Assembly (NCBI RefSeq): GCF_011044255.1
Contig: NZ_CP049107.1
Coordinates: forward strand, 930,001-994,000
Source of the DNA: Rhizorhabdus phycosphaerae
GTDB lineage: Bacteria > Pseudomonadota > Alphaproteobacteria > Sphingomonadales > Sphingomonadaceae
Direction of reading: 5' to 3'
DNA length: 64,000 nucleotides
Position 1 is the stretch's first letter. Each line of letters begins with the position of its first letter. Of this stretch, positions 6,313 through 25,595 are shown one piece after another. The notes below the pieces were generated by a model that was not told where the DNA came from, made no database searches, and worked only from the letters and a program-made list of their open reading frames with translations. A program made the translations under genes and the position numbers.

Positions 6313-6316
6313 GACA

Positions 6317-7498
6317 TCAGCGCGCCGCCTTGTCCTTGGCCGACTTGGGCCGTTGCGGCGTCGTATCGGGCACCGCCTTCACCGGCTGATCGGGCCGCGC
6401 CTTGCCCAGCCCCTGCGTGATCAGCTTGTCGCCGGGTTTCAGCCCGGCGGTCACCACCCAATTGCTGCCGACAGTGCGTTCAGCCGTGACGAGGCGTTGC
6501 TCGGCCTTGTCGCCCTTGCCCACCAGCAACACCTGCGCCCGCCCCTGTGCGTCGCGCCCCAGCGCGCTCTGCGGCACCAGCATGACACCGCGTTGCACCC
6601 CCTTCACCAGCATCGCCCGCACGAACATGCCCGGCATCAGCAGATTGTCGGGATTGTCGAACCGCGCCCGGAGGGTCACCGTGCTGGTTCCGGTCGCCAC
6701 GGAGACTTCGGAGAACTGGAGGCGCCCGACCGTCGGGTAGATTTCGCCGTCGTCGAGCTTCAGGCGGACTTCCACGCCCATTTTCCCGCCGTCCCGAAGG
6801 GCGATCCGCCGCAGGCGGAACAGCTCGGTCGCGTTCTGCTGGATGTCGACATTGATCGGATCGAGCACGCTGATCCGGGCCAGCGGCTCGACCTGATTGA
6901 TGCTGACCAGCGCGCCTTCGGTCAGCAGCGATCGGCCGACGATGCCCGACACTGGCGCAGGCACGGTGGTGAAGCGCAGATTTATCCGCGCCGTCTCCAG
7001 CGCCGCGCGATTCTGCGCGACCGACGCAGCCGCCTGAAGCGAAGTCGCCACGGCATCGTCGAAGTCCTGCTGCGACACCGCCTGCGCATTGGCGAGCGGG
7101 GTCAGGCGATCGGCGCGCTTCCGCGTCGCCTTGGCCAGTGCCTCGGCCGCCGCCAGATTGGCGGAGGCCTGCCGCACGGCGGTCTGGTACAGGCTGGGAT
7201 CGATCTCGTAGAGCGGCTGTCCGGCGCGGACGAACTGCCCCTCCTCGAACAGCCGTCGGCGGATGACCCCCGTGATCTGTGGCCGCACCTCCGCCTCGCG
7301 CACCGCCGTGGTCCGTCCGGGCAGTTCCGCCTCGAGGGGCACGTCCTGGTAGCGCATCGTGCGATAGCCGACTTCGGGCGGCCCCTTGTCGCGCTCCTCG
7401 CGCGCGGAGCAGCCGGCGAGCGACAGCGTCGCCACCGCCACCAGCAGCAACGTCGGAACGCGACGACGCGACGTTTCAATAATCCGTGCGGGCTTCAA
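6317..7498 (-). CDS. RND efflux periplasmic adaptor (membrane fusion lipoprotein, AcrA/MexA-like)
   Basis: A 393-residue adaptor with a lipoprotein signal ending in LAGC (Cys at about residue 29). It has the split lipoyl/barrel-sandwich domain (RPQITGVI, later APVSGIVG), a central alpha-helical hairpin rich in Ala, and a beta-barrel domain (LLMPGMFVRA). A Lys/Pro-rich tail ends the protein. The start overlaps the end of the acylase gene by 23 bp and the stop is 4 bp before the permease start, so acylase, adaptor and permease form one translationally coupled unit. It links the permease to an outer-membrane channel. Confidence 0.95.
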   Translation of the reverse strand: MKPARIIETSRRRVPTLLLVAVATLSLAGCSAREERDKGPPEVGYRTMRYQDVPLEAELPGRTTAVREAEVRPQITGVIRRRLFEEGQFVRAGQPLYEIDPSLYQTAVRQASANLAAAEALAKATRKRADRLTPLANAQAVSQQDFDDAVATSLQAAASVAQNRAALETARINLRFTTVPAPVSGIVGRSLLTEGALVSINQVEPLARISVLDPINVDIQQNATELFRLRRIALRDGGKMGVEVRLKLDDGEIYPTVGRLQFSEVSVATGTSTVTLRARFDNPDNLLMPGMFVRAMLVKGVQRGVMLVPQSALGRDAQGRAQVLLVGKGDKAEQRLVTAERTVGSNWVVTAGLKPGDKLITQGLGKARPDQPVKAVPDTTPQRPKSAKDKAAR

Positions 7499-9587
7499 GA
7501 TTGGCCTCTACCTGAGCGCGCTCGGTCCAGAGCGTGCGGAGTTGTTTGCGGGAAATGAGATCGAGCTGGTCGCTGCGATGGGGAGAGCCGGGCTGGCTGC
7601 TGTTGCCATAGCTCATCACGCCCATCGCCTTGGGCTTCTGTCCGAATTCGATCAGGGCGACCCAGGTTTCGCCGGCCGTGGGCGTGCGGCGGCCGTTGCG
7701 CAGAGGCCCCCATGTGATCGTGCGGAACAGGCCGAGATTGCCGAAGCCGCCATTGCCCGGCCGGTCGACATCGCCGATCGCGAAGCGCGAGACCTCACCG
7801 AAGGGACGGTCGAGCGCACCGAATTGGGCGATGGTGGTGTCGGCTGCCTGCCGCAGCAGAAGCAGTGCCTTCGCCACGTCACCGACCCCGCTGGGCGTAT
7901 CGATCGGCGATTGCGCGTCCCAGCGCCGGGCGAAGGATGCGTCATCGGTGAAGCGGGATCCCATGAAGAGCCGCGCCCAGCTCTCGAACAGCAGGGCCCC
8001 CCGCGAGTCCGCCTCGAAACGGCCATCCCATGCGGCCAGCACCGCGCCCGCGCTCCGTACCATTGGATCGGAAGAGGCCAGCGCGGCGGGAAGCATGTCC
8101 GGCAGGACCCGCCCGGCGAGCAGCGCAGTCGTATCGTGCTTGCGCGCCAGCAACTGGTCGAAGGTCAGCCGGTCGGTACCGAGCAGCTGGCGCACCGACA
8201 TCTGCGCGCGCAGCGACATCGGCCCCGGCGGCGCGACATAAGCAGGGAAGTCGGTCGCGCGGTAAGGCTGCGGCCAGGTCGGCGTCCATGGCGGGTCGTT
8301 CGCATTCTGGACGAAGCCGCTCGGCGGATCGATCACCTTCGGCAGGTCATCATAGCCATGGACGGCGGTGACAAGGTCCGCGGAATCGTCACCCGGCACC
8401 GGCCGCGACCAGTCGGCGAAACTGCCCTTACGCCGCCGGGGCAATATGCCGTTGTCCATGTACAGGATGTGCCCGTCGCGATCGGCATAGACGATGTTGA
8501 ACATCGGGATCTGCATCCGGCGCAGGATCGAGACGAACTCATCCAGGCCCGATGCCCGCGCCATGTCGAAATACTGCTGGAGCATGCCAGGCCGATCAAG
8601 GCCCGCGACATGGACCGCCACGGTGTCGCCGTCGGCCGTTTCGAAAACGGGACCGTGGACGGTCGAGCGGATCGTCAGCCGCTCACTCCGCAACTGCCCG
8701 TCCGGCTCGCGCACGAGCAGTTCGCGTGTGCGCAGGTCGAACGGACGGACCTTGCCGTCGAGCACATAGCCCCCATCCTGCAGCGTCAGCCGATAGGTCG
8801 TCGAGCCGAGGATGGTGTTGACCGTGTTGGTGAAGCCGATCTTGTCGGTAAAGGCAAAGCGGATGATCGGCAGCCCGACCTGCGTGGCGCCATAGATCGA
8901 GAAACCCGGCGCGCTGATCTGCGCCTCATAATAGGTATATTGCCCCGGCGCCCAGGGCAGGTGCGGATTGGCGAGCAGCATCGCGTTGCCGCTGGCCGAG
9001 CGCGACGGTGCGACCGCCCAGGCGTTGGAGCCGCCAGCCGGCTCCTCCCCCAGCGTCTTTTGCCGTGACGCGATGTAGACATAGTTCACGAGCCGCAGCG
9101 CGTGCGCGATCACGTCGGTGCCAGTGACCGGCAGCACGCGTCGTACTTCGGGATCCAGGGCCTGGGGATTGGCTGCGGCATAATCGTTGATGCCCGCAGC
9201 GAATGCGTCGAGATCCGCGCGGAAACCGGGCGTCTGCAACCGGTACCATTCGGCCGCCCGCTCCGCTATGCCATGAGAGAGAGTCCAGCGATCGTCGGCG
9301 AGATGCTCGGCCCCCCAATATTCGGCGCCGCGCCCCCGCGCGAGGCCATAGAGTCGCAGAATCACATTGCCGTGGCTGTGCGCCTGCGCCCATCCGAAGC
9401 CGCGAAAGGCGTCTGCCTCGCTCTTCGCATAGACATGCGGCACGCCGTAGCGGTCCCAGAGGATTTCCCCATGGCGTTCCGCGGCATGAGCGACGTCGCC
9501 GAGGGCCGCGCAAAGGATGATACTGATTCCGCGAATAAAATTGGCTGTTATACTTGCTCGATGCTTGGCCATGTCACGCCGGATCAT
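7476..9587 (-). CDS. Penicillin acylase family N-terminal-nucleophile amidohydrolase, secreted
   Basis: A 703-residue Ntn hydrolase of the penicillin/AHL acylase family (PF01804). A Sec signal peptide ends near AHA (about residue 35). The alpha-chain region carries DRYGVPHVYA and FGWAQAHS. The catalytic Ser, which becomes the new beta-chain N terminus after self-cleavage, is Ser187 in GGSNAWAV. Downstream are NPHLPW and the beta-chain core with NANDPPW and RAQM. The ATG at 9587 has AGAGGA 7 nt upstream. Family members cleave amide bonds of beta-lactams, N-acyl-homoserine lactones or acylated aromatic amines; which one applies here is unknown. It heads the operon with the RND pump. Inference: it may free an amine for the nearby amine oxidases, or degrade a toxic or signalling amide. 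Confidence 0.92.
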   Translation of the reverse strand: MIRRDMAKHRASITANFIRGISIILCAALGDVAHAAERHGEILWDRYGVPHVYAKSEADAFRGFGWAQAHSHGNVILRLYGLARGRGAEYWGAEHLADDRWTLSHGIAERAAEWYRLQTPGFRADLDAFAAGINDYAAANPQALDPEVRRVLPVTGTDVIAHALRLVNYVYIASRQKTLGEEPAGGSNAWAVAPSRSASGNAMLLANPHLPWAPGQYTYYEAQISAPGFSIYGATQVGLPIIRFAFTDKIGFTNTVNTILGSTTYRLTLQDGGYVLDGKVRPFDLRTRELLVREPDGQLRSERLTIRSTVHGPVFETADGDTVAVHVAGLDRPGMLQQYFDMARASGLDEFVSILRRMQIPMFNIVYADRDGHILYMDNGILPRRRKGSFADWSRPVPGDDSADLVTAVHGYDDLPKVIDPPSGFVQNANDPPWTPTWPQPYRATDFPAYVAPPGPMSLRAQMSVRQLLGTDRLTFDQLLARKHDTTALLAGRVLPDMLPAALASSDPMVRSAGAVLAAWDGRFEADSRGALLFESWARLFMGSRFTDDASFARRWDAQSPIDTPSGVGDVAKALLLLRQAADTTIAQFGALDRPFGEVSRFAIGDVDRPGNGGFGNLGLFRTITWGPLRNGRRTPTAGETWVALIEFGQKPKAMGVMSYGNSSQPGSPHRSDQLDLISRKQLRTLWTERAQVEANLEARTDY

Positions 9588-10302: not shown

Positions 10303-11892
10303 CTAGGCAGCCAGGGCCCGCTGGTGCAGCCGGGTGATGGCGTCGATCGAGGACAGCAGCGCTCCCTCCTGCCAGCAGCCATAATAAGAGGCATGTTCAC
10401 CAGCGAGGGCGATGCGGCCGTCTAGCGCGACGAGATTCTGGTAATGCTCCTTGCGCGTCGCCTCGGTCCAGGTGGCGCAGCATCCGAGTATCCAGGGCTG
10501 GCGCGCCCAGGCGAAGGAGGCGCCGTTCATATACTCCTTGCGAATTTCCGGGTGGAACAGCGAGCCCTGTTCAAGCGCCGCTTCGATGCGCTGCTCATGC
10601 GTCATGCCCGCGATCATGAACCCGCCCGGGCCGCCCGACAGGGAGGTGAGCATGCCCGGAGCATCGCGGAAGAAATCGAAATTGGGATAGGACAGCGTCC
10701 CGATCGACGGATGATCCGAAAAGCTGTGCCCGCCATAGATGGAGTAGTCCTCCTCCCAGAAGCGGCGGCGCATCTCGAGGCCCATCTTGGCCGAGCTCGA
10801 ATAGGGCAGCGCCTTGATGGCCGCCTTCTTGGCATCGCTGATCTGGATGTCCATCTGGTTGAGGATGCTGGTCGGCAGCGTGCACACGCACCAGTCGGCC
10901 TTGGCCTCGCCCTTCTGCCCGGTCCTGGCATCTTCCCAGGCGACGCTGACGCCCTTGGGGCTTTGGGCGATCTTCACGACCTTCGTGTTGTAGCGGATCA
11001 TCTGGCCCAGCTGCTGGGCGAAGGCCTTGCCGATCATGTCCATGCCGCCCTTGGGCTGGAACATGGTCGTCTGCATCACATAGTTGAAATAGAAGCCCAT
11101 CTGGGACCAGACCTTCGAGGAGAGCACGTCTCCCAAGGCGTTGACCTTCGACGGGGTCGGAGCACCGCCGACGCCGCCACCGGGCGCCCGGTCATAGCCA
11201 CGCTGGGCCGACACCGCGATGCTGCTGTCATAGGCGAGGTCGGCATTGAGCACGCCCCATTCGCGCATCGCCTGGAGCAGCTTCTCCTTGTCTTCCTTGC
11301 CCAGCGTCGTGTCGAGCGCGCCCGCATTGAGCGACTTGGACAGCAATTCCGAGACATGGCCCTTGAAGTCGACAGCAAGCTCGCGATAGCGCTGCGGCTT
11401 GCCGCCAAAGGCATCCTTGCGATGAACGAACACATTGTGGTTCATCTGAATGAACGGTTCGAGCTCGACCCCGAAAGCCTTGCAATAATGGAGGATGGTC
11501 CGGTGGTGGTGCGGGATGCGCCACGGGCCCGGGTTGAGATAATTGCCCGGTGCGAAATTGACCGACTGGGTGGCGCCACCCACTTCGACGATCTTGTCAC
11601 CACCGCGCACCGTATAGTTCCGGCCCCCGGGTCGATCCTGATATTCGAGCAGCTGGACCTTGTAGCCGGCCTTGGACAGCTCATAGGCGGCGACCAGCCC
11701 CGCCAGGCCCGCGCCCAGTACCACCACCGACGCGCCGGGGCGAGCGCCGGTCAGCTTGGGCGGCCCGCCGAACTGCGTCTCGGCCGCATGACCCAACGCC
11801 GTCATGGCCTGATACATCGCCATGCCCCCGCCGACGCGGCCGATCATCGTCAGCCATTCCCGGCGCGTCTGCGGCGCCATGTCGTTGAGCAT
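10303..11892 (-). CDS. Tat-exported flavin amine oxidase/dehydrogenase, paralogue 2
   Basis: A 529-residue PF01593 flavoenzyme. The leader TRREWLTMIGRVGG (RR at residues 10-11) followed by GHAAE looks like a Tat signal. The GxGxxG motif GAGLAG is at residues 60-65, RPGGRN follows, and LAGEHAS is near the C terminus. It is very similar to paralogue 3 (GPPKL, NPGPWRIPHHH and FQPKGGMDMIGK are shared), so the two look like a recent tandem duplication. The ATG at 11892 has AAGGGGGAT upstream. It lies 30 bp after the cytochrome c gene and is the last gene of the receptor-RidA-oxidase-cytochrome-oxidase string, ending at the 10208 hairpin. The substrate is unknown. Confidence 0.9.
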   Translation of the reverse strand: MLNDMAPQTRREWLTMIGRVGGGMAMYQAMTALGHAAETQFGGPPKLTGARPGASVVVLGAGLAGLVAAYELSKAGYKVQLLEYQDRPGGRNYTVRGGDKIVEVGGATQSVNFAPGNYLNPGPWRIPHHHRTILHYCKAFGVELEPFIQMNHNVFVHRKDAFGGKPQRYRELAVDFKGHVSELLSKSLNAGALDTTLGKEDKEKLLQAMREWGVLNADLAYDSSIAVSAQRGYDRAPGGGVGGAPTPSKVNALGDVLSSKVWSQMGFYFNYVMQTTMFQPKGGMDMIGKAFAQQLGQMIRYNTKVVKIAQSPKGVSVAWEDARTGQKGEAKADWCVCTLPTSILNQMDIQISDAKKAAIKALPYSSSAKMGLEMRRRFWEEDYSIYGGHSFSDHPSIGTLSYPNFDFFRDAPGMLTSLSGGPGGFMIAGMTHEQRIEAALEQGSLFHPEIRKEYMNGASFAWARQPWILGCCATWTEATRKEHYQNLVALDGRIALAGEHASYYGCWQEGALLSSIDAITRLHQRALAA

Positions 11893-11922
11893 CGGCCGAT
11901 CCCCCTTGGTACTCTCTCGAAA

Positions 11923-12366
11923 TCAGTTGCAGGTGGTACAGTCGGGAGCGGATCCCGGATTGCCGGCGCCTACCCGCTTCACGTCCTCGACCGTGACCGG
12001 ATCGGGATAGTTATTGAAATGGCTGCGGATATAGGTTGCGACCGCAGCCATCTGCTCGGGCGTCAGCATGTCGGTGAACCAGGGCATCCCGCCCCGCCCC
12101 TTCAGCAGCAGGGTGATCGGATAATCCTTGTCCTTGAGCTTCGGATTGTTCGCGAGCGCCGGAATCGCCGCGCCCGCGCCGCCGCCGCCCTTGGCGTCGG
12201 CCATGTGGCAGGCCTGGCAGATCTGCTCGTAGACGAGCTTGCCTTCGTTCGCGACCTGCACCGCGCTGACGCCGCCCGCAGAGTCCTGCGCAGAAGCCGA
12301 TGCCGTGGCGACCAACGCGACGACAGCGCCCGCCGCAGCCACCAGCAACGACCGCTCCAGCCTCAT
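11923..12366 (-). CDS. Periplasmic class I cytochrome c (amine-oxidase partner 2)
   Basis: A 147-residue c-type cytochrome with a Sec signal peptide (cleavage near ASASAQ) and one haem motif CQACH (Cys50, Cys53, His54). The candidate Met ligand is in the GGMPWF segment. The start overlaps the stop of amine oxidase 3 by 4 bp (ATGA), showing translational coupling. An oddity is an extra C-terminal tail with a second Cys pair (CTTC), not part of a haem motif because no His follows. It is closely related to the cytochrome at 1016-1444 (both have ALA-NPKL followed by YP). It is the probable electron acceptor for one or both flanking oxidases. Confidence 0.94.
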   Translation of the reverse strand: MRLERSLLVAAAGAVVALVATASASAQDSAGGVSAVQVANEGKLVYEQICQACHMADAKGGGGAGAAIPALANNPKLKDKDYPITLLLKGRGGMPWFTDMLTPEQMAAVATYIRSHFNNYPDPVTVEDVKRVGAGNPGSAPDCTTCN

Positions 12367-13955
12367 GCGGCGAGTGCCTTCTGGTGCAGCCGCTCAATCG
12401 CATCGAGCGCGGAGAGCAGCGAGCCCTCCATCCAGCCGCCATAATAGGTCGCATGCTCACCGGCGAGGACGATGCGGCCGTCGAGCGCGACCAGATTCTG
12501 GTAATGCGCCGCCCGGCTTTCTTCGGTCCAGCGCGAGGTACAGCCGAGGATCCAGGGCTGGCGACTCCATGCGAAGGATACGCCGCTCGCATATTCCTTC
12601 CGATATTCGGCAGGGTGGAAGACCGATCCCTGCGCCAGCGCCGCCTCGATCCGTTGCTCGGGCGTCATGCCCGTCAGTTGCAGCGCGCCGGCATTGCTGG
12701 CGAAAGCGCCCACGAGCACCGCCGGGCCATCCTGGAAGAAATTGTTGTTCGGGTAGGACACCAGCCCGATCGCCTGATCGGTGAAGCTGTGCCCGCCATA
12801 GATGGAATAATCTTCTTCCCAGAAGCGACGGCGCATCTCGAGACCGATCTTGAGCTGGCCGTTATACGGCACGGCGCGGATCGCGGCCTTCATCTTTGGC
12901 CCGACCTGCACGTCGAGCTGACTCAGGACCGGCAGCGGGATCGTGCAGACGCACCAATCGGCCTTGGTATCGCTCACCTGCCCGGTCTTCAGGTCTTCCC
13001 AGCTGACGGTGACGCCCTTGGCGCTCTGAGCAACCTTGGTCACCTTGGCATTATAGCGGATCATATTGCCAAGCTGCTTGGCAAAGCCCTTGCCGATCAT
13101 GTCCATGCCGCCCTTGGGCTGGAACATGGTCGTCTGCATCACATAGTTGAAATAGAAGCCCATCTGCGTCCACACATTGGACGCGAGGACATCGCTCAGA
13201 CCATTGACCTTGGAAGGCGTCGGAGCGCCGCCAACCCCACCACCCGGCGGCTGGTCATAGCCACGCTGGCCCGACACCTTGAGGCTGCTGGTGTAGGCCA
13301 GCTTGTCGTCGAGCACGCCCCATTCGCGCATCGCCAGGAGGAGCTTCTCCTTGTCCTCCTTGCTTACCTTGTCGTCGAGCGCACCCGCGTTGAGCGACTT
13401 TGACAGCAGTTCCGAGACATGGCCCTTGAAGTCGACCGCCAGCTCCTTGTAGCGCTGCGGCTTGCCGCCGAAGGCGCTGGTCCGGTGGACGAACACATTG
13501 TGGTTCATCTGGACGAACGGCTCGAGCTCCACCCCGAACGCCTTGCAATAATGCAGCAGCGTCCGGTGATGGTGCGGAATGCGCCACGGACCAGGGTTCA
13601 GATAATTGCCGGCCGAGAAGGTGCAGGTCTGTTCCGATCCGCCGACCTCGACCACCTTGTCGCCGCCGCGCACCGAATAATTCCGGCCGCCGGGCCGGTC
13701 CTGATATTCGAGGATCTGGACCTTGTAGCCGGCTTTTGCCAGTTCGTAAGCGGCCAGCATGCCCGCAAGGCCGGCACCCAGCACCACCACCGACGCCCCC
13801 GGCCGCGCTCCGCTGAGTTTCGGCGGCCCCTTGAACTGGGTCTCTGCGGCATGCCCCAGAGCCGTCATCGCCTGGTACAGCGCAACACCGCCCCCCATCC
13901 GGCCGATCATGGTCAGGAGATCGCGGCGCGAGGGTCCGGAAGAAGTGTCTGTCAT
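12363..13955 (-). CDS. Tat-exported flavin amine oxidase/dehydrogenase, paralogue 3
   Basis: A 530-residue PF01593 flavoenzyme. SRRDLLTMIGRMGG (RR at 10-11) and GHAAE form a Tat-type leader. The dinucleotide motif GAGLAG, RPGGRN and the C-terminal LAGEHATYYGGW are all present. It is most similar to paralogue 2. It is coupled to the cytochrome c gene by a 4-bp overlap and lies 36 bp after the RidA-like gene, so product imine and imine hydrolase would be made together. By analogy to NicA2 and pseudooxynicotine oxidase it should oxidise a C-N bond and pass electrons to cytochrome c; oxygen as acceptor cannot be ruled out from sequence. Confidence 0.91.
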   Translation of the reverse strand: MTDTSSGPSRRDLLTMIGRMGGGVALYQAMTALGHAAETQFKGPPKLSGARPGASVVVLGAGLAGMLAAYELAKAGYKVQILEYQDRPGGRNYSVRGGDKVVEVGGSEQTCTFSAGNYLNPGPWRIPHHHRTLLHYCKAFGVELEPFVQMNHNVFVHRTSAFGGKPQRYKELAVDFKGHVSELLSKSLNAGALDDKVSKEDKEKLLLAMREWGVLDDKLAYTSSLKVSGQRGYDQPPGGGVGGAPTPSKVNGLSDVLASNVWTQMGFYFNYVMQTTMFQPKGGMDMIGKGFAKQLGNMIRYNAKVTKVAQSAKGVTVSWEDLKTGQVSDTKADWCVCTIPLPVLSQLDVQVGPKMKAAIRAVPYNGQLKIGLEMRRRFWEEDYSIYGGHSFTDQAIGLVSYPNNNFFQDGPAVLVGAFASNAGALQLTGMTPEQRIEAALAQGSVFHPAEYRKEYASGVSFAWSRQPWILGCTSRWTEESRAAHYQNLVALDGRIVLAGEHATYYGGWMEGSLLSALDAIERLHQKALAA

Positions 13956-13991
13956 CGAACTACCTTTTCGGGCGGAGCCGGGGAGCAGGGA

Positions 13992-14474
13992 TCAGGGCGC
14001 CTTGGCGGCAATCGCCTCGATCTCGACGAGCGTGGTGGGTCGGCCGAGCGCGGCGACCTGCACGGTCGAGCGGGTCGGCTTGTTGGGCTGCTCGGGCGTT
14101 CCGAAGAAGGTCTTGAACACCTCGTTCATGGCCGGCGCGTCCATCCGCCCTTCCCGCTCGGGAACGCCGACCAGAAACACGGTCATCTTGACGATGTCGC
14201 CCATGCCGAGGCCGAGCTTTTCCAGCTGCGCCTTCATCTTGGTGAGGATCGACAGCGTCTGCGCCTTGGTGTCGCCGAACTCCTCGGGCTTGGCCGGGTC
14301 GACCGGAGAGGCCGTGCTGCCGGAGAGGAAGTAGAGCTTGGTGCCCGGCGGCACCATCGCGCTGCTCGCGATCACCGCCGTCGGATTGGCGGAGGTCCGC
14401 TCGATCTGGGCTTGCGCGCCCGAGGCCCCAAGGGCCAGGGCGATGGCGGCGGTCATGGCGATCGTGCGGATCAT
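13992..14474 (-). CDS. RidA-family (enamine/imine deaminase) protein with signal peptide, copy 1
   Basis: A 160-residue YjgF/YER057c/UK114 (RidA) fold protein with an added Sec signal peptide (residues 1 to about 22, ending AQAQ). The family's catalytic Arg is in PTRSTVQV, followed by the conserved C-terminal VEIEAIA. The ATG at 14474 has AGGAG 7 nt upstream. Classical RidA hydrolyses reactive imines and enamines in the cytosol; the export signal places this one in the periplasm. It sits between the TonB receptor and amine oxidase 3, which fits hydrolysis of the imine made by the oxidase. That role is inferred. Confidence 0.88.
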   Translation of the reverse strand: MIRTIAMTAAIALALGASGAQAQIERTSANPTAVIASSAMVPPGTKLYFLSGSTASPVDPAKPEEFGDTKAQTLSILTKMKAQLEKLGLGMGDIVKMTVFLVGVPEREGRMDAPAMNEVFKTFFGTPEQPNKPTRSTVQVAALGRPTTLVEIEAIAAKAP

Positions 14475-14543
14475 GGCATGTCTCCTGTGGATGTCGTTGA
14501 GGGGCGGAGGGAGCGCGGGGATTAGGCGCCCCCTCCTAAGCGA

Positions 14544-17201
14544 TCAGAACTTCAGGGTGAGGCGGGCGTAGTAATAGCCGCCGTTGGTGCCGTAGGGCCC
14601 GTGGTTGTACGGCGCGTTGATCGTCGTCGTACCGTTGATGTAGGGCGACACGCCATTGGTCGGCAGGGTCGCGAGCGGCACCAGGCCCGGCGTTTCCGGG
14701 ATCTTGTTGAACAGGTTCTGCGCGCCGATGGCGAGGTTCGCCCATTCGGTGACATCATAGCCGAGCTCGGCATCGACCAGCGCTGCCGCCTTGACCACCG
14801 CCGGGAACAGATTGCCGGTGATCGGCGCCGAAGCGACGGTAATTGCCGGGTTCACGAGAACCGTGGTCTTGCCGAAATAGGTGCCACGCAGATTGGCGCT
14901 GAACGGGCCGCTGGTGAAAAGCGCGTTGGCGACGACCTTATAATCCGGATTAGACGTTTCGATGATCGCCCTTGCTTGGGCACCGAACAGTGTCCCGAGC
15001 CGATTCTTCTTGACCTTGGTGTGGTTGTAATTGGCGCCGAGCGTCAGATCGAGCTTGCCGATCGGCAAGTCCATCGCATACCTGCCCGAGAATTCGACGC
15101 CCTTGGTTTCGGTATTCACCCCGTTGGTAAACGTCTGGATCGCCAGCTGGCCCGTTCTCACGACAGTGTCGTCGATCGCTTTTCCGCTAGCATTGATTGC
15201 TCCGATCACAAGATCGTACGGCGTGATGCCATTGATCAGCGGCGTAAGCACTTGGACGGCCGGAGCATTGGCCGTCGGCGATTGCCGCTGACCAATGATC
15301 GTGCCCGATGAGACGATACGATCACGGATCTTAATCATATAGGCGTCGAGGCTCAGCACCAGGCGCGGAGCCGGGCGGATGACGGTGCCGACCGAGAAGT
15401 TGGTCGACTTCTCCGGACGCAGCGCACCGAAGCCTGCCGCCGCCGAACCCGGCGAGCTCGGCGCCAGTTGCACGGTCGCCGAGGTTGGGCCGACATTGGT
15501 CGCCGAATAGCCCGATTCCGCCAGCGACGGAGCGCGGAAGCCAGTGCTGACGGTGCCGCGCAGCGCGAAGGCCGGGCTGAAGTCGTAGCGTGCGGTCAGT
15601 TTGCCGATGGTGGTGTTGCCGAAGTCGCTATAATCCTCGAAACGACCCGCGAGGTCGACGACGAGGTCGGTGACCGGCTTGAGGATGAAGTTGCCGTAGA
15701 TCGCCTTGACGTTGCGGCGGGTCTTGCCGGCATCGGTGATGCCGTAGCCAGGGAAGGACTGGCCACCCTCGATGTAACGCGAGCCCTCGTCGCCGTAGAA
15801 GATCGAATAGCTTTCCCGCCGATATTCGGCACCGAAAGCGAAGGTCATCGGTTCGGCCATGCCGACTTCGAACTGCTTGTTCACGTCGAGCGTGGCGATG
15901 AACTGGTTGAACTGGAAACCGCCGTCATAGAAATCGCGGGGCGTGAAGCCACGATCGGTAGGCGACGCGGACGCCAAGGCCGCCCTCGTCGTGTCGGCCC
16001 ACAGGCTCGCATTGGCCGAGTTGGTCGTATAGACGTCGGAACGATCTTCCGAATAGGAGCCGCCAAGATCCCAGGCCCAGCCCGAAAGCTCGCCCTTGAT
16101 GCCGCTGGTGAACTGGAACTCGTTCTGCTTCACTTCGATCAGCGGAACCATCCCGGACGCAACCGTCGGCGCAAAGCAATTGGCCGGGTCCGTCGGCGAG
16201 GTCGCGCTACCGGCGACGCAGATACGGTTGGGCGGCCGATAGCCTTGAAGTGCTTTGCCGTGGCGATAGGAGACATCACCGAACGAGTAGATTTGCACGT
16301 CACCGAAGTCGTAACCAGCATTGTAGAAGGCGACATTTAGCTGTGAATTGGGTTGCCCGCCATTGATCCCGGCCGTGCCGTTGCGCGCGTTCAGGGCGTC
16401 ATAAATCGGCTGGAAGCGGACATTGGCGCCCGTCAACCGGACAGTCGAACCGTCAATGTTGCGGACGGTCGTCTGGCCGTCGCCGATCGTCGTATAATCG
16501 TTACGACGGTGGAACAGCGTCAGATTGAGGAAGCCCGAGTCCCCGATCGGCATGCCGAAATTGCCGCTGGCGCTGTAGGTGCGGCCCTCGCCGTCATAAT
16601 ATTCGCCGGCGGTGCTCTCGAACAACAGCCCCTCGGTGCTGTTCTTCGTTATGATGTTGATCACGCCGGCAATGGCGTCGGTGCCATATTGGGCGGCGGC
16701 ACCATCCTGCAGGATTTCGATCCGCGACACCGCCCCCGGCGGGATCAGGTCGATGCTCGGCGCGACCGACCCGCCGAAGGCACCGTTGATCACCTGGAGG
16801 ATCGAATTGTTGTGACGACGCTTGCCGTTGACCATCACGAGCGTGTGGTTCGGGCTGACGCCGCGCAGACGGGCGCTGAGCGAGAAGCTCGCCATGTCGG
16901 TGCCCTGCGTCTGCGCGGTGAAGGACGGGACGAGCTGGGTCAGCGCCTGGTTGAGGTTCGGCTGGCCGACCTTGGCGATCGCGTCCGAATTGACGAGCTG
17001 GATCGGCGTTGCGCTCTCTGCGACCATGCGGCCGCTGGCGCGGGTGCCGGTCACGACGATCTCGCTGGCCGGCTCCTTCTCGGGCGCGTCGGCAGCGGCA
17101 AGCTGAGTCTCAACGTCCGCACGGGCAGGAGCGCAGAGGATCACCGAAGAGAGTGCCGTCGTCGCAAATATGGCGACAGAAAATTTTTCGATAGAACGCA
17201 T
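14544..17201 (-). CDS. TonB-dependent outer-membrane receptor
   Basis: An 885-residue receptor. A Sec signal ends near APARA, the TonB box EIVVTGTR is at about residues 47-54, a plug domain follows (ILQDGAAAQYGTDAIAGVINI), and a long beta-barrel ends with an aromatic C terminus (ARLTLKF). The start at 17201 has AGGGGGGA upstream. It is the first gene of the minus-strand string with RidA copy 1 and oxidases 3 and 2, which suggests it imports their substrate or its precursor. Its size and plug resemble the large receptors common in sphingomonads. The ligand is unknown, and no siderophore genes are nearby. Confidence 0.95.
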   Translation of the reverse strand: MRSIEKFSVAIFATTALSSVILCAPARADVETQLAAADAPEKEPASEIVVTGTRASGRMVAESATPIQLVNSDAIAKVGQPNLNQALTQLVPSFTAQTQGTDMASFSLSARLRGVSPNHTLVMVNGKRRHNNSILQVINGAFGGSVAPSIDLIPPGAVSRIEILQDGAAAQYGTDAIAGVINIITKNSTEGLLFESTAGEYYDGEGRTYSASGNFGMPIGDSGFLNLTLFHRRNDYTTIGDGQTTVRNIDGSTVRLTGANVRFQPIYDALNARNGTAGINGGQPNSQLNVAFYNAGYDFGDVQIYSFGDVSYRHGKALQGYRPPNRICVAGSATSPTDPANCFAPTVASGMVPLIEVKQNEFQFTSGIKGELSGWAWDLGGSYSEDRSDVYTTNSANASLWADTTRAALASASPTDRGFTPRDFYDGGFQFNQFIATLDVNKQFEVGMAEPMTFAFGAEYRRESYSIFYGDEGSRYIEGGQSFPGYGITDAGKTRRNVKAIYGNFILKPVTDLVVDLAGRFEDYSDFGNTTIGKLTARYDFSPAFALRGTVSTGFRAPSLAESGYSATNVGPTSATVQLAPSSPGSAAAGFGALRPEKSTNFSVGTVIRPAPRLVLSLDAYMIKIRDRIVSSGTIIGQRQSPTANAPAVQVLTPLINGITPYDLVIGAINASGKAIDDTVVRTGQLAIQTFTNGVNTETKGVEFSGRYAMDLPIGKLDLTLGANYNHTKVKKNRLGTLFGAQARAIIETSNPDYKVVANALFTSGPFSANLRGTYFGKTTVLVNPAITVASAPITGNLFPAVVKAAALVDAELGYDVTEWANLAIGAQNLFNKIPETPGLVPLATLPTNGVSPYINGTTTINAPYNHGPYGTNGGYYYARLTLKF

Positions 17202-17490
17202 CTTTTCATTCCCCCCTGTGGCGGTGCGTCCCTCTCCGTTTCACGTCATTTACTTCGCCTTGTCCCGGCGATTCTTGCAGAGCGAACCATTGTCCGCATT
17301 TCCCCCTTGGAACAGCGAGACGGTTCGAATCGAACTTGGTAAGTTCTTGTTAGGACATAACAGGGCATCGGCCGGCACATTGCCCATACGCCGTTTTGCG
17401 TACGGCCCCGTCGACCGCTCCGCATATGATCGTCCGCGCCACGGTGGAGGGGGTGTTTCCCGCCGTGCATTCAGCAACGGAGGATGGATC
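17202..17490. promoter_or_regulatory. Divergent control region, TonB receptor / RidA copy 2, with palindrome
   Basis: A 289-bp gene-free region between divergently read genes of the same pathway. It contains the perfect odd palindrome GTTCGAATCGAAC at 17323-17335, a good candidate operator. AT-richer sequence follows at 17336-17360. The nearby LuxR-type response regulator (18019-18936) is a plausible binder, but this is inference. Confidence 0.45.
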
Positions 17491-17994
17491 TTGACGCGCA
17501 CATGGATGATAGCGGGCGCCTGTATGGCGGCCTGCCTCGCAACCGCCTCTCAGGCACAGATCACGCGGATCCAGAACAACCCCAAGGCAGTGATTCTCGA
17601 CGCGGCCAAGGTCTCGGCGGGTGCGGAGACGCTGTACATCTCCGGACAGCTCCCCTCCCCGATCGATCCGGCCAAGTCGATGGCCGACATCAAGAGCATC
17701 GAGGATCTCGGCGACACGAAGACGCAAACCATCAGCGTGCTCAACAAGATCAAGACGATCCTGGAGTCGCAGGGCTATGGGATGCAGGATCTGGTCAAGC
17801 TCAGCCTGTTCGTCGCCCCCGACCCCAAACTGGGCAAGCTCGATTTCATGGGCGCCAACGAGGGCTTCAAGATGTTCTTCGGAACCGCCGAGAATCCGAC
17901 CACGGTCGCGCGCTCGACCTTTCAGGTCGGGGCTCTGGTCGGCCCCTATTTCCTGATCGAGATCGAAGCGATCGCCGCCAGGAAGCCGAAATGA
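17491..17994 (+). CDS. RidA-family protein with signal peptide, copy 2
   Basis: A 167-residue RidA-fold protein. The TTG at 17491 is chosen because GGAGG lies 7 nt upstream and it gives a proper signal peptide beginning MTRTW and ending ASQAQ; the next ATG would lose the basic n-region. It shares INP/NPKAV, YISGQLPSPIDPAK, DLGDTKTQT and the catalytic-Arg segment ARSTFQV plus EIEAIAA with copy 1. An acidic insert (ADIKSIEDLGD) is specific to this copy. It is divergent from the receptor gene and predicted periplasmic. It probably handles an imine or enamine formed outside the cytoplasm. Confidence 0.85.
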   Translation: MTRTWMIAGACMAACLATASQAQITRIQNNPKAVILDAAKVSAGAETLYISGQLPSPIDPAKSMADIKSIEDLGDTKTQTISVLNKIKTILESQGYGMQDLVKLSLFVAPDPKLGKLDFMGANEGFKMFFGTAENPTTVARSTFQVGALVGPYFLIEIEAIAARKPK

Positions 17995-18018: not shown

Positions 18019-18936
18019 CTATTGGTCCAATAGCCGCGTCGCGATCGCTGCCGCTGCCGAGCGCATCTCGACGCCCAGCTTTTCGTAGATGCGTTCGAGG
18101 TGCTTCTGCACCGTACGAGGGCTGATGTTCAGCACGTCGCTTATGTCGATGCTCGCCTTGCCATAGCTGACCCATAGCAGCACCTCGGCCTCGCGATGGG
18201 TCAGCTGGAGCTGCTCGCGCAGGCGAACGACATGTTTTTCGGGATCGAGCTGGTTGATCCGTATGAGCACCTCGTCTCCGCGATAGCGGGCGATGATCAC
18301 CAGTTCGAGATTACCGGCAAAGCCGGGCGGCCCGATCTTGACCGAGGACCCCGGACTGCCCCGCTCGACCAGGGTGGCAACCTTCTGCCCCAGGGCGGGG
18401 GGAAGATCGGCCCCCCGCTTCCAGCCCGGCACGATACCGCCGATCGCCTGCTCGGCGCCGGGCGTGCACCAGAGCAGTTTGCCGCGCGTATCGGTCGCGA
18501 TCATGAGACGACCGGTGGCGTCGAGGCTGGCGACGCTGGCCTGGACCGCTCGACCCTGCGCCATATGGACGCGGACGCGCGCGACGAGCTCCGACAGCTG
18601 CACCGGCTTCTTGACATAGTCGACGCCGCCGACCTCGAACGCCTCGACGACATGTTCGCTTTCGGTCAGCCCGGTCATGAAGATGACAGGGACATGGTGG
18701 AGTTCGGGCCGCTTCTTGATCTGCGCCGTGACCTCGAACCCGTCCATCTCGGGCATGACCGCATCCATCAGGATGAGGTCGGGTACGATGTGGTGGAGAC
18801 GATCGAGCGCGGCCTTGCCCGAGGTCGCGACGAGCACCGCCAGATCGGCGGCCTCAAGGGCACGGCTGATTGCGCGCAGCGAGTCCGGCTCGTCGTCGAC
18901 GATGAGGACGGTGTCGCTGTGACCGGGAATGTTCAA
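18019..18936 (-). CDS. Response regulator, REC-PAS-like-LuxR HTH
   Basis: A 305-residue regulator with an N-terminal receiver (phosphoacceptor Asp58 in LILMDAVMPEMDGF). The middle part (ATDTRGKLLWCTPGAEQAIGG) looks PAS-like, and a C-terminal LuxR/FixJ helix-turn-helix (LTHREAEVLLWV, SPRTVQKHLERIYEKL) ends it. The start overlaps the stop of the hybrid kinase by 4 bp, so kinase and regulator are a translationally coupled pair. It is convergent with RidA copy 2. Probably it controls the receptor/oxidase genes around it, though no binding site is proven. Confidence 0.92.
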   Translation of the reverse strand: MNIPGHSDTVLIVDDEPDSLRAISRALEAADLAVLVATSGKAALDRLHHIVPDLILMDAVMPEMDGFEVTAQIKKRPELHHVPVIFMTGLTESEHVVEAFEVGGVDYVKKPVQLSELVARVRVHMAQGRAVQASVASLDATGRLMIATDTRGKLLWCTPGAEQAIGGIVPGWKRGADLPPALGQKVATLVERGSPGSSVKIGPPGFAGNLELVIIARYRGDEVLIRINQLDPEKHVVRLREQLQLTHREAEVLLWVSYGKASIDISDVLNISPRTVQKHLERIYEKLGVEMRSAAAAIATRLLDQ

Positions 18937-20624
18937 CCCTCATACTCCTCGACAAGTCGCGCCATGCCTTCGAGATCGAACCGGTCGAGCCGGTCGAACA
19001 GTTCCGCACTCAGCCGCTGCGCCTCGGGGCATTGGTCCGCCAGCTCGCGTATCTCGTCCTCCAGGCCCCGGAAGTGGCCGATCTTCAGCAGTTCGGTGAT
19101 CCGCCGGAGGCGAGCCTCCATCTCCTCCCCCAGGCGCCCGCCGCGACGGTCTCCCTCGCCACCCTTGCGGGGCACCGGCTCGTCCGCCTCGAAGCGCCAG
19201 ACCAGCTCGAGCTGGGACCCGATCGTCTCGATCAGGGCGGCGAAGCTGACGGGCTTGGTCAGGAAATGGTCGTGCACGGGGTTCGGGAAGTCCGGCCGGT
19301 GCAGCTCATGGGCATTGGCGGACAGCATGACGATCCGCAGATCGCTCCCGCCCCGCAGCCTAAGCTCGGATGCGGTCGCCCATCCCGAGATTCCGGGCAG
19401 GCTGATGTCGAGCAGGACGAGGTCGAACTGCCGGTCCAATGCGAGCGCGATCGCCGATTCCCCGTCTGGTGCGCACCAGACATCGAAGCCCATGCCCCCG
19501 AGAAACCCGTCGAGGAACTGGCGCTGATCGGCGTCGTCGTCGACGATGAGGATCGAGCGTCGGGGGCCATGATAGCCCTCGATCTGCGGCTTCTTCTCGC
19601 TACTGCCCTGCCTGGCTACCACCTCGCTCAACAACAATGTGACCCGCAGGCAGGTCCCGGTCGGGCTGCTCTCGACCAGTTCGAGCTGGCCGCCCAATAT
19701 CTCGACGATCGCGCGCGATATCGAAAGCCCCAGCCCCGCTCCCGGCTTGGACCGGACATGCTCCTCCCCGCCCCGCGCATAGGGATCGAAGATCGTCGGC
19801 TGGTCCTCGGGGCTGATGCCGCGCCCGGTGTCGCGTATCTCGAAGGTCGCGACCTGGGCGGCATAATGGAGGCTGAGCGTCACCGAGCCCCTGTCTGTAT
19901 AGGCGATCGCGTTGGACAGCAGGTTCAGGAAGACCTGGCGCAGGCGGTTGGGATCGGTGCGCACATGCTCGGGCAACCGGCCGCGCTTTACATAGTCCAG
20001 GTGCAGGCCCTTGGCCGCAGCGGCGGGCCGCACCATCGAGATCAGCTGGTCGATGAATTTATCGAGCCGCACGACCTCGGATCTTACGCGCAGTACGCCA
20101 TGTTCGATCTGGGCGACATCGAGCAGCCCCTCGACGAGGCTCGTCATATGCTCGGCGCAGCGGCGTATCACCCGCACCGCCTCCTTCGCGCCGACGCCGT
20201 CATTGCCCTCGATCAGCTGGGCATAGCCATAGATGGCGTTGAGCGGCGAGCGGATCTCATGGCTGACATTGCTGATATAGCGACTCTTGGTGACGTTGGC
20301 CGTCTCCGCTGCATCCTTCGCGCGCCGCAGTAGCTGCATCTGCTCCAACTGCTCGGCGATGCGGCGCGACCCTTGGTGGAACATCCTGAAACAGGCCCAG
20401 GCGGCATAGCCGATCAGCAGCTGGACCAGCGCCAGGATCGACCAGTAAATCCAGTCGGCGCCGTCGGTCGCGATCTCGAGCACCAACACCACGCAGTCCA
20501 GCACGCAGGCTGCGAAGATCAGCATCATACCCTGAAAATAGCGGCGATTACCGTCGCCAGCGAGGTGTCGGGCCGCGTCCGGGGCGTCGACGTCGCTCGC
20601 GGAACTGGGCGCCATGGCTGTCAT
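18933..20624 (-). CDS. Membrane hybrid histidine kinase (HisKA-HATPase-REC)
   Basis: About 563 residues. There are two adjacent transmembrane helices (about residues 32-53 and 60-80), then a coiled linker, a HisKA box SHEIRSPLN (His122) and an HATPase_c domain with NLLSNAIAYT, DTGRGIS and GAGLGLSI. A C-terminal receiver with LVLLDISLPG and a short His/Leu-rich helical tail follow. The ATG at 20624 has GGAG upstream; a TTG at 20645 would add 7 residues. There is almost no periplasmic loop between the helices, so the signal is sensed in the membrane or through partners. It forms an operon with the LuxR-type regulator at 18019-18936. Confidence 0.92.
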   Translation of the reverse strand: MTAMAPSSASDVDAPDAARHLAGDGNRRYFQGMMLIFAACVLDCVVLVLEIATDGADWIYWSILALVQLLIGYAAWACFRMFHQGSRRIAEQLEQMQLLRRAKDAAETANVTKSRYISNVSHEIRSPLNAIYGYAQLIEGNDGVGAKEAVRVIRRCAEHMTSLVEGLLDVAQIEHGVLRVRSEVVRLDKFIDQLISMVRPAAAAKGLHLDYVKRGRLPEHVRTDPNRLRQVFLNLLSNAIAYTDRGSVTLSLHYAAQVATFEIRDTGRGISPEDQPTIFDPYARGGEEHVRSKPGAGLGLSISRAIVEILGGQLELVESSPTGTCLRVTLLLSEVVARQGSSEKKPQIEGYHGPRRSILIVDDDADQRQFLDGFLGGMGFDVWCAPDGESAIALALDRQFDLVLLDISLPGISGWATASELRLRGGSDLRIVMLSANAHELHRPDFPNPVHDHFLTKPVSFAALIETIGSQLELVWRFEADEPVPRKGGEGDRRGGRLGEEMEARLRRITELLKIGHFRGLEDEIRELADQCPEAQRLSAELFDRLDRFDLEGMARLVEEYEG

Positions 20625-20925: not shown

Positions 20926-21390
20926 TCAGCGCGATGCGGCACCGGCCCCCGGTCCATCGAACGCAATCGCCGACAGCCCTGCCTGATCCGACGGGAGCGG
21001 ACGCTCGCCCGCTGGCAGCCCATTCGCTTCGAGCAGGAAGGCAATGAGAGCGGCGTTTTCGGTGGGGGACAGGGATCCCGGCGCCGGCTGCGGCATCGCT
21101 CTCGACACATAATCGAACAGCGGCCAGACCGGTCGCCGAGCCCAGTGGGCGACGAACTTGCCCGTCAGCGCGGGAACCTCGTAGCTGCCTTCGAGCCGCG
21201 AACCATGGCAGACCGCACAACGGATGGCATAGGTGCGTGCCCCCGCCTTAGCCTGCTCGGCGGTATAGACACCCTCCCTGACGCCGAGAGCGGGGGCGGC
21301 AGCGGGCCGGGTCGCTGGCCCCGCCGCGACGGCGAGCGTCGTCCAGACGACAGCGGCGAGCGCGAGTGCAATGGCCGGCCGGCTGCTCAT
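20926..21390 (-). CDS. Periplasmic cytochrome c (partner of DAO-like flavoenzyme)
   Basis: A 154-residue c-type cytochrome with a Sec signal peptide (about 1-23, VAAG) and one haem motif CAVCH (Cys58, Cys61, His62). A possible Met ligand is in RAMPQPAPGSL. It differs from the two amine-oxidase-linked cytochromes (different length and spacing), so it is a separate lineage. Its start overlaps the stop of the preceding flavoprotein gene by 4 bp (ATGA). It is the likely electron acceptor of that enzyme. Confidence 0.92.
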   Translation of the reverse strand: MSSRPAIALALAAVVWTTLAVAAGPATRPAAAPALGVREGVYTAEQAKAGARTYAIRCAVCHGSRLEGSYEVPALTGKFVAHWARRPVWPLFDYVSRAMPQPAPGSLSPTENAALIAFLLEANGLPAGERPLPSDQAGLSAIAFDGPGAGAASR

Positions 21391-22655
21391 GCCAGGCGCT
21401 CCGGCCGCGCCGCCGCGAGAACAGGTGCGATGATCGCCAGGCCTTCTTCTATCGCGCTACGGTTGGGCAGTTCATTGGAGTCGCCCACACCGAGCATGTC
21501 GCCGATCTCCGGATTGTTGTTCATGACGACGACCCCGTCAGCCTTGGAGAGAAGCGAGATATTCTTGTAGCGGACGCCATAGTCGACCGCAGGCTGCGGC
21601 ATCAGCCAGCCGGTCTGACCACGCACCGGGATGATCGTATTGTCGCGCCACAAGTCGCGCGCAGCATAGCCGGTCGAATGGATTACCACCTTCTGCGGCA
21701 GCGTCGCCAGTTCGGACGGGTCGGCGAAGTCGCGCACGACGAATTGCCCGCCCCGCTCGAAAAATTCCGAAAGCAGGCAATGGGCGTAGCTCGCGAAGTT
21801 GAAATGCATGTTCGACGAGCGCTGGGCATAAGCCACGGGAAAAGGGTTTTCCTCGGGCGACAGGTCCGTGCCCAGCGGAACGATGTCCCGGATCCGGTCG
21901 ATGTAATGGCCGAACTCCGCATTCTGGCGCGGAAGACCGCCCGGCTTCCAGCTGTCCGTGATCGCCGGATCGGCGGGCCAGATACGCCGCTTGATCGGCT
22001 CGTCGGACAGCGCGAAACTGTCGCTGAAAGCCACCGGATTGCCCGGCAGGCCGAGAAAGGTGCGGAAGGTCTTCCACGACAGACGCGCCATCTGCTCCCA
22101 CAGCGGGCCGAAGGCGGCACCGGCCGGCTCGGCCAGCGCGACACGTGCATCCGGCGTAAAGGAGCCGCTGGCGCGGAAGGAGCGCGTCTTCTGAATCAGC
22201 TCGCGCGCGTAGATAGTGACCTTCAGCCCCGCCCTCTGGGCAACGATCGCGCTCGTAAGCCCGACGATCCCGCAGCCGACCACGGCGATCTCGCGGGGGA
22301 GAACCGAGAGCGCCTTTCCGACCGCAATGTCCGCCGATCCCCACGACAACGACCAGCCGCTGCCGCCATGACCGTAATTGTGGACGACCAGCGTGTCGCC
22401 GACCATCTCGGTACCAAGATTGGGGCCTGCCGCGCGCAGCGGCCGGATGCAGCATTTGACGTCGACGATCTCGCGCGGCGTCGCACGGAACGGAACCAGC
22501 GTGCGGGTGCCATCGAGCCGGGCCAGTTTGGCAGCGGTCGCAAGCCGCTTCGAGCCTACCGGCGCGCAGGCGCTCAGCCCGGCGACGATCCCCGCCGCGC
22601 CGGCCCGCCGCAGAAGGGCCCTGCGGCCCAGTGTGTCGTCATAAGCTCCGGCCAT
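21387..22655 (-). CDS. FAD-dependent oxidoreductase of the D-amino-acid oxidase (DAO) type, Tat-exported
   Basis: About 422 residues. The N terminus GRRALLRRAG plus a hydrophobic stretch ending LSAC looks like a Tat leader with a possible lipobox. The dinucleotide motif VVGCGIVGL and the DAO-family features VVHNYGHGGSGWSLSWG (placed early) and VIHSTGYAARDL are present, suggesting D-amino acid oxidase/DASOX relatives with the conserved GHGG segment. The ATG at 22655 has GGGGGAA close upstream; the longer ORF to 22706 lacks a ribosome site. It is coupled to a cytochrome c gene by a 4-bp overlap. It probably oxidises an amine or amino acid in the periplasm, giving an imine that RidA proteins could hydrolyse. 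The substrate is unknown. Confidence 0.82.
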   Translation of the reverse strand: MAGAYDDTLGRRALLRRAGAAGIVAGLSACAPVGSKRLATAAKLARLDGTRTLVPFRATPREIVDVKCCIRPLRAAGPNLGTEMVGDTLVVHNYGHGGSGWSLSWGSADIAVGKALSVLPREIAVVGCGIVGLTSAIVAQRAGLKVTIYARELIQKTRSFRASGSFTPDARVALAEPAGAAFGPLWEQMARLSWKTFRTFLGLPGNPVAFSDSFALSDEPIKRRIWPADPAITDSWKPGGLPRQNAEFGHYIDRIRDIVPLGTDLSPEENPFPVAYAQRSSNMHFNFASYAHCLLSEFFERGGQFVVRDFADPSELATLPQKVVIHSTGYAARDLWRDNTIIPVRGQTGWLMPQPAVDYGVRYKNISLLSKADGVVVMNNNPEIGDMLGVGDSNELPNRSAIEEGLAIIAPVLAAARPERLA

Positions 22656-25118: not shown

Positions 25119-25595
25119 ATGTCGGCTCCCTCGCTTGATCCTATCGATCGGACTATCCTCCACGAGCTGCAGGAGGACGGGCGGATGACCAACGTCGATC
25201 TCGCTCGCAAGGCCGGTCTGACGGCGCCGCCCTGCCTGCGCCGCGTGCGCGCACTGGAAGAAGCGGGCGTCATCGAGAGCTATCACGCCCGGCTCAACGC
25301 GGCCGCCCTCGGCTATGGCATTACGGTGTTCGCGCTCGTCTCGCTCCGTAGCCAGGCGGAGGAGGACCTGCGCCAGTTCGAAGCCCATGTGGCAGCGCTC
25401 CCCGAAGTGCGCGAATGCCATATGCTGAACGGCGAGATCGACTTCATCCTGAAGATCGTGGCGCACGATCTCCAGGCGTTCCAGCAGTTCCTGACGTCGC
25501 AGCTGACGACGGCGCCCAATGTGGCGAGCGTGAAGACCTCGCTCACCATCCGTACGTCGAAGGACGTACCGGGGATTCCCGTCGACGGAGCCTGA
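25119..25595 (+). CDS. Lrp/AsnC-family transcriptional regulator
   Basis: A 158-residue regulator. An N-terminal winged helix-turn-helix (LDPIDRTILHELQEDGR, then LARKAGLTAPPCLRRV) is followed by an RAM/AsnC effector-binding domain (VRECHMLNGEIDFILKI). AAAGG precedes the ATG at 25119; an upstream TTG at 25104 is less likely. It has full family length. The 120 bp upstream are AT-rich and probably hold its promoter and autoregulatory sites. Members sense amino acids; the effector is unknown. It is convergent with the TPR gene, with a shared terminator between them. Confidence 0.94.
   Translation: MSAPSLDPIDRTILHELQEDGRMTNVDLARKAGLTAPPCLRRVRALEEAGVIESYHARLNAAALGYGITVFALVSLRSQAEEDLRQFEAHVAALPEVRECHMLNGEIDFILKIVAHDLQAFQQFLTSQLTTAPNVASVKTSLTIRTSKDVPGIPVDGA

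Follow-up and report, generated by a model that had tools for sequence, protein, structure and literature searches.

What task is served by a string of genes in which an outer-membrane receptor, flavoenzymes, a cytochrome c and proteins of the Rid family lie side by side, all with export-like N-termini? The question is raised by positions 10303 to 17994 of the window, by which we mean the whole 64,000-nucleotide stretch of Rhizorhabdus phycosphaerae DNA analysed here (contig NZ_CP049107.1, positions 930,001 to 994,000). On the minus strand the gene order is TonB receptor, RID1, AO2, CYT and AO1, with RID2 divergent, and every gene named in the initial annotation was found there, with the strands and the four-base overlap that it had given. 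The best explanation, which we hold to be probable on comparative grounds, is a regulated periplasmic amino-acid-dehydrogenase system, a dehydrogenation regulon in which predicted exported oxidases would pass electrons to neighbouring cytochromes c and exported Rid proteins would remove the imino acids formed.

AO1 (10303-11892, minus strand) and AO2 (12363-13955, minus strand) are flavoenzymes of family PF01593 that resemble L-amino acid oxidases (LAAOs), with N-termini of the twin-arginine translocation (Tat) type (motifs TRREWLT and SRRDLLT, respectively). A third LAAO-like oxidase, AO3, lies at 1456-3069 on the minus strand (start at 3069, GTG, or 3048, ATG) and has a KR-type Tat-like motif. 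AO1 and AO2 are 75% identical, and AO3 and AO1 48%. AO2, the only one of the three used to search the Protein Data Bank (PDB), has as its best match the LAAO of Rhodococcus opacus (2jae, E 6.6e-84, 285.8 bits), followed by L-amino acid oxidase ancestors at 149 bits, and the best entry labelled monoamine oxidase reaches 45.7 bits. Over the aligned stretch of the R. opacus enzyme the window oxidases are 35-36% identical to it (36% for both AO1 and AO3); the LAAO of Gluconacetobacter diazotrophicus, discussed below, is reported to be 34% identical to the same enzyme (PMC5053998; this and the other papers cited by PMC number are drawn on from the parts of their text that were available). Residues were compared in an alignment of 86 rows, ie 83 matches in 69 sources, the window's three included, plus those three again as queries. 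The arginine at R. opacus position 84 is kept in all 86 rows, as is a lysine, and the tryptophan at position 467 is present in 85, the other row having a gap. We infer that AO1, AO2 and AO3 would act on alpha-amino acids with differing side chains. The initial annotation had spoken of amine oxidation; its assignment to PF01593 stands, but 'amine' should probably read 'alpha-amino acid', because the closest solved relative is an LAAO, and the generic identity 'amine oxidase' was dropped on the same PDB ranking. Elsewhere, LAAO-like oxidases occur as up to eight paralogues per genome, often in tandem, in genomes of one genus (g43; locus L076 and others), and in the 20-kb stretch of L076 the oxidase has neither a cytochrome c nor a Rid neighbour.

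The electron acceptor is suggested by the gene next door. CYT (11923-12366, minus strand) is a class I cytochrome c with a CxxCH motif and a Sec-type signal, and its start overlaps the stop of AO2 by four bases; AO3 has a cytochrome c partner of its own, CYT3 (1016-1444, minus strand). The recurrence of such pairs was followed in three sets of loci: 28 from a first scan, mostly from Sphingomonadales and Phenylobacterium; a close set of 23 further stretches, being all the listed places of at least 48% identity outside the own genome; and a distant set of 17 places from among the less similar ones, the others of which were left out. The counts are limited by stretch lengths of about 20 kb and by contig ends. 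A cytochrome gene within 400 bp of the oxidase and on the same strand was present at 28/28, 23/23 and 5/17 of these loci, respectively. According to a study published in 2025, which includes kinetic tests, a Tat signal together with an adjoining cytochrome c gene predicts a dehydrogenase that uses cytochrome c, an enzyme type marked by poor reaction with O2 and fast reduction of its own cytochrome (PMC12224317), and both sequence features, the cytochrome with a Sec signal, can be read here. The enzymes might instead be periplasmic oxidases that use oxygen and release hydrogen peroxide, the cytochromes serving other routes. The R. opacus relative is, after all, named an oxidase, and most of the tested Tat enzymes without an adjoining cytochrome gene reacted fast with O2 (PMC12224317). 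We think this very unlikely, given that a cytochrome gene adjoins the oxidase in all 51 close loci, that the genes for AO2 and CYT overlap by 4 bases, and that the adjoining gene is called the stronger predictor of dehydrogenase function in that same study.

The Rid proteins would take over where the oxidases leave off. RID1 (13992-14474, minus strand; signal MIRTIAMTAAIALALGASGAQA) belongs to PF01042 and is closest to the Rid3 subfamily. The second, divergent Rid3-like protein, RID2, occupies 17491-17994 on the plus strand; its frame is open from 17170, and the likely start is the TTG at 17491, behind GGAGG, which gives a normal-looking signal peptide. In the PDB, RID1 matched 9bka (1.5e-27) and 9bkc (5e-27), the next match being at 9.5e-12, and RID2 matched 9bkc (PFL1385; 1.4e-28) and 9bka (7.3e-23), with the next at 4.4e-10. 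By these matches both are closest to the Rid3 proteins PFL_1385 and PSPTO_3006 and not to RidA. The arginine needed for imine hydrolysis is present in each (within TRS in RID1, by alignment with other Rids, and within ARSTFQV in RID2), as is the glutamate that follows the catalytic arginine (VEIEA in RID1). At the position of the RidA active-site tyrosine, which in the Rid3 subfamily is replaced by isoleucine, RID1 has a serine by pairwise alignment, with an isoleucine two residues away. Signals were read by eye: Sec-type N-termini were seen in RID1, RID2, CYT and the TonB receptor, and Tat-like ones in AO1 and AO2. A home-made signal rule was passed by 60 of 60 Rid matches in the 69 sources compared with 96 of 341 other genes, a contrast somewhat flattered because the start codon was freely chosen for the Rids and not for the control. 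By this reading of the sequence, the N-termini look like the export signals assumed in the initial annotation.

Published work on Rid3 agrees with such a role. With a snake LAAO acting on L-Leu, Gln, Phe, Met or His, less semicarbazone was formed when PFL_1385 or PSPTO_3006 was present, and both proteins also used iminoarginine (PMC5619798), and Niehaus et al. found that RidA, and sometimes Rid3, clusters with FAD (flavin adenine dinucleotide) amine oxidases (PMC4433059). The window Rids are thus like the Rid3 subfamily in their closest solved proteins, in the imine-hydrolysis arginine and in the company that Rid3 genes keep in places (PMC4433059). They carry signal-like N-termini, export not being discussed in such words in the Rid3 papers: 'periplasm' and 'signal' or 'signal peptide' are absent as words from the available main texts of PMC5619798 and PMC4433059. 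In 2015 Niehaus et al. gave the in vivo substrates of Rid1-3 as unknown (PMC4433059), and an exported Rid3 in this setting offers a direct test case.

If oxidase and Rid work together, they should travel together, as the initial annotation implied. Over 398 evenly sampled Pseudomonadota genomes, the own genome included, the oxidase was found in 27 and the exported Rid in 25; 24 genomes had the pair, 3 only the oxidase and 1 only the Rid. These counts are lower bounds, since the oxidase search scored 3 candidates per genome and the Rid search up to 9; the four discordant genomes were still discordant after every candidate in them had been scored. Of 28 places with a Rid, 22 had an oxidase at 800 bp or less and 4 more at up to 4.1 kb, 26 in all; the remaining two were in a genome without the oxidase and, in the own genome, at a third Rid. 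In the three sets of loci a Rid lay within 10 kb of the oxidase at 18/28, 15/23 and 8/17, respectively, and the linkage of oxidase, cytochrome and Rid recurs in several families. The TonB-dependent outer-membrane receptor (14544-17201, minus strand; PF07715 and PF00593) is less constant, a receptor of the window type being within 6 kb at only 13/28, 7/23 and 4/17 loci, and is for that reason taken to be accessory, with a role in uptake that is conjectural. At one locus (L029:15956-18369) a TonB receptor and a Rid are followed by genes that, by their beginnings and by eye, resemble TonB-ExbB-ExbD, and there is a LysR-type regulator gene at the other side of this cluster.

The genes also appear to share a control element. 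A predicted operator, TACGC-N6-GCGTA, is matched exactly at only two sites of the 4.33 Mb genome, and both fall in the window: one at 17387-17402, in the divergent region between the TonB receptor and RID2, and the other at 3121-3136, upstream of AO3 and CYT3. Ten divergent TonB-receptor/Rid regions were compared, that of the window included. Summed over its nine relatives, the best 18-base site of the window has 19 mismatches, where the best site of 20 shuffled sets averages 54.7, and the core is without mismatch in 8 of the ten regions and has one mismatch in the other 2. Across the 69 sources there are 12 exact copies, 11 of them no more than 450 bp upstream of a gene for an oxidase, Rid, receptor, regulator or D-amino acid oxidase (DAO)-like protein, and the same holds for 22 of the 31 copies counted as near-exact (0-1 mismatch). 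Next to RID2 are the genes for a response regulator with a receiver and a LuxR-type helix-turn-helix domain (18019-18936, minus strand) and, overlapping it, a hybrid sensor histidine kinase (18933-20624, minus strand; HisKA, HATPase_c and receiver domains). At 42 loci with a Rid, the operator was present at all 10 that have the response regulator and at 5 of the 32 that do not; in two of those five, L009 and L032, a contig end is close by, and a third, L019, has its copy inside a cytochrome gene. The response regulator is probably what binds the operator, and the gene set is apparently co-regulated through it. A small regulon with an exact operator is thereby predicted.

Put together, the system may work as follows. 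An amino acid would enter the periplasm, perhaps by way of the TonB receptor bringing in the substrate or a carrier of it, and would be oxidised there by AO1, AO2 or AO3. The reduced FAD would be re-oxidised by CYT or CYT3, and not by oxygen, with the electrons going on to the respiratory chain; this step is proposed because of the gene pairing and two published precedents, the kinetics of PMC12224317 and the genetics of G. diazotrophicus (PMC5053998). RID1 and RID2, as Sec-exported Rid3 proteins, would hydrolyse the imino acids to 2-oxo acids and ammonium before they could react with periplasmic components, and the 2-oxo acid and the ammonium would then enter the cell. The histidine kinase and the LuxR-type response regulator would switch on both arms, that of the cluster at 10303-17994 and that of AO3-CYT3, through TACGC-N6-GCGTA. 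The initial annotation had placed uptake, oxidation, electron disposal and imine removal all outside the cytoplasm. Recurrent linkage, signal-like N-termini and the Rid arginine favour this for the oxidation, electron transfer and imine hydrolysis, on comparative evidence; uptake by the TonB receptor is conjecture.

The same chemistry is compatible with another purpose, namely the product. The 2-oxo acids (eg indole-3-pyruvate on the way to indole-3-acetic acid, IAA, or iron-binding keto acids) might be made for signalling or iron supply, with the TonB receptor recovering an iron-keto-acid complex. Proteus-type deaminases yield keto acids that serve as siderophores. In G. diazotrophicus the corresponding genes were needed for IAA (PMC5053998); no pointer to IAA or to iron emerged from the window, a Fur site not having been searched for, and we regard this purpose as unlikely.

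Several observations weigh against a general amino-acid-dehydrogenation regulon. The residue at R. opacus position 371 is L, F and Y in AO1, AO2 and AO3, and that at position 426 is C, T and F, so that the tyrosine at 371 is missing from AO1 and AO2 and the tryptophan at 426 from all three; the substrate may therefore not be a common amino acid. The numbering and the roles of these residues are as we take them to be for the R. opacus enzyme, and a literature search on the roles, with most subscription journals outside its range, returned no paper. L-amino acids usually need no TonB receptor. Ten of the 28 first-scan loci (five from Phenylobacterium, three from Novosphingobium and two from metagenome-assembled genomes) have oxidase and cytochrome with no Rid within 10 kb, and the Rid is therefore not obligatory. 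Conversely, the third exported Rid-like protein of the own genome (C1:3508593-3509063, ie L128:5582-6178, minus strand) is 2.6 Mb away with no oxidase beside it; by their N-termini its neighbours resemble a MerR-type regulator and a ligase. The Fisher p of 3.7e-34 for the co-occurrence of oxidase and Rid in the 398 genomes is uncorrected for relatedness. As to the operator, some near-exact 'upstream' copies are inside neighbouring genes (at window position 19036, in the kinase gene, and that of L019 in its cytochrome gene), and when up to two mismatches are allowed the window shows no enrichment of the motif, with 22 copies where 30 would be expected. With up to one mismatch the genome has 46 operator sites, compared with 334 for the pattern read backwards. 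As evidence for the operator we count only that exact copies exist, where they lie and how they are conserved.

The changed residues are also the first argument for a narrower enzyme, one dedicated to a particular amine or an uncommon amino acid imported by the TonB receptor, as in a catabolic pathway of the nicotine type, and not on amino acids in general. The 371 and 426 pocket residues are altered in AO1 and AO2 and vary from one paralogue to the next in all three, the receptor heads the gene string, and NicA2 and Pnao are the founding cytochrome c users (PMC12224317). Against this, LAAOs are the nearest relatives of known structure, and the arginine at position 84 is universal in the alignment; 44 of the relatives' 68 loci have no receptor of the window type within 6 kb; and a Pfam scan of 17 window proteins brought out no genes for downstream catabolism. 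On balance a dedicated substrate of this kind seems improbable to us.

How much of the proposed amino-acid-dehydrogenase system is new? The initial annotation knew of no described system with this exact set, which is too strong, because the oxidase-cytochrome-Rid core is already in print as the lao-cccA-ridA operon of G. diazotrophicus PAL5 (PMC5053998), and Tat dehydrogenases that use cytochrome c are described in PMC12224317. For that operon a periplasmic, cytochrome c-coupled hypothesis was proposed in 2016; lao mutants made no IAA, mutants in cytochrome maturation (ccm) are cited as making 5% of the wild-type amount, and the cluster, co-transcribed and required for the step from tryptophan to indole-3-pyruvate, is said to be shared by Caulobacter and Xanthomonas (PMC5053998). 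The likeness extends to a PF01593 LAAO with a Tat signal and adjoining cytochrome c and Rid genes, and such genes adjoin on the same strand here too; by sequence, the core of the window system is that of the lao-cccA-ridA cluster. Here, by contrast, the oxidases number three and the cytochromes and Rids two each, accompanied by a TonB receptor, a two-component system and an operator common to both arms, and the available text of PMC5053998 reports a signal for the LAAO and does not mention Rid export. That paper also cites a periplasmic LAAO-RidA complex of Chlamydomonas, thought to scavenge ammonium, which is similar in that a periplasmic LAAO works with a RidA-type subunit, and different in being eukaryotic and in that cytochrome c is not mentioned for it in the text available. 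A RidA protein is encoded alongside TonB receptors and a D-amino acid deaminase in a cluster for chitin oxidation, the reactions being placed in the cytoplasm (PMC9537276), and a Rid6-type gene occurs in a nicotine cluster (PMC7688666). Among the literature matches listed, from a search with most subscription journals outside its range and from sources available in part, none but PMC5053998 concerned an exported bacterial Rid working with an oxidase. Rid export in such clusters, a two-arm regulon with its operator, a linked TonB receptor and a permuted DAO partner (see below) are undescribed among those matches, and it is the regulation and the full extent of the gene set that look new.

The window oxidases also resemble the NicA2 and Pnao dehydrogenases with their CycN-type partners, in that a PF01593-type Tat flavoenzyme has an adjoining gene for a Sec-type cytochrome c (PMC12224317, PMC9396064). 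The survey in PMC12224317 began from the top 5000 BLAST hits of NicA2 and describes NicA2-centred clades 1-3. What may set AO2 apart from these is its closest solved relative, the R. opacus LAAO, and not a direct comparison with NicA2; no chain labelled NicA2 was among the best 60 of the 108 PDB sequences for AO2, some rows of which are labelled merely 'Amine oxidase'. Since the R. opacus enzyme leads by a wide margin, AO2 may belong to a further dehydrogenase lineage. The prediction is then of one more lineage of flavin amine oxidoreductases with cytochrome c, and not oxygen, as electron acceptor, encoded as enzyme-cytochrome pairs.

Beyond the kinase gene is a second kind of flavoprotein (21387-22655, minus strand) with a Tat-like motif and a lipobox-like cysteine, partnered by a cytochrome c (20926-21390, minus strand) with which its gene overlaps by four bases. 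It has the DAO fold, residues 119-415 of the predicted model matching chain residues 2-264 of 6rkf_B. The canonical order, with GxGxxG N-terminal and HNYGHGG near the C-terminus, is not found: HNYGHGG comes about 31-33 residues before GxGxxG, and in all 13 loci that show both motifs, from 18 DAO loci, YGHGG is 31 residues before GxGxxG. The protein thus resembles a circularly permuted form of D-amino acid oxidase, no description of which was among the ten literature matches listed of 382. DAO-like relatives were found in 17 of the 398 Pseudomonadota genomes, the own included, and within 12 kb of the oxidase at 6/28, 3/23 and 0/17 loci of the three sets. A single in-frame stop interrupts the aligned stretch in four of the 18 DAO-like matches (G000, G062, G025 and G711). 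In the 69 sources 7 of 10 DAO matches have a cytochrome no more than 400 bp away, and a CxxCH frame of 80-260 residues was present in the available flanks of only 1 of the 18 DAO loci across the phylum, the window's own; the pairing is local. Because no operator copy with 0-1 mismatch precedes the DAO gene of the window, control of DAO by the same operator was rejected and co-regulation of a D-amino-acid arm is not claimed.

A wider picture can be drawn only tentatively. It is possible that sphingomonads carry out a signal-controlled periplasmic 'amino-acid respiration', in which one operator and two-component system would govern three L-amino-acid dehydrogenases from a lineage outside the known cytochrome c users, two cytochromes, two Rid3 proteins and a TonB receptor, beside an exported, permuted D-amino-acid dehydrogenase with its cytochrome c. 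L- and D-amino acids would be stripped of their nitrogen while Rid3 guards the periplasm from imines.

Between the two operator-controlled arms, at 3166-9587 on the minus strand, are genes for a resistance-nodulation-division (RND) pump, a membrane fusion protein and a PvdQ-like acylase. They were considered as members of the system and rejected, a homologue of the acylase being present at 0 of the 28 first-scan loci and RND or fusion-protein homologues at 6. Also in the vicinity, at 25185-25595 on the plus strand, is a gene for an Lrp/AsnC-type regulator, a kind that often senses amino acids.

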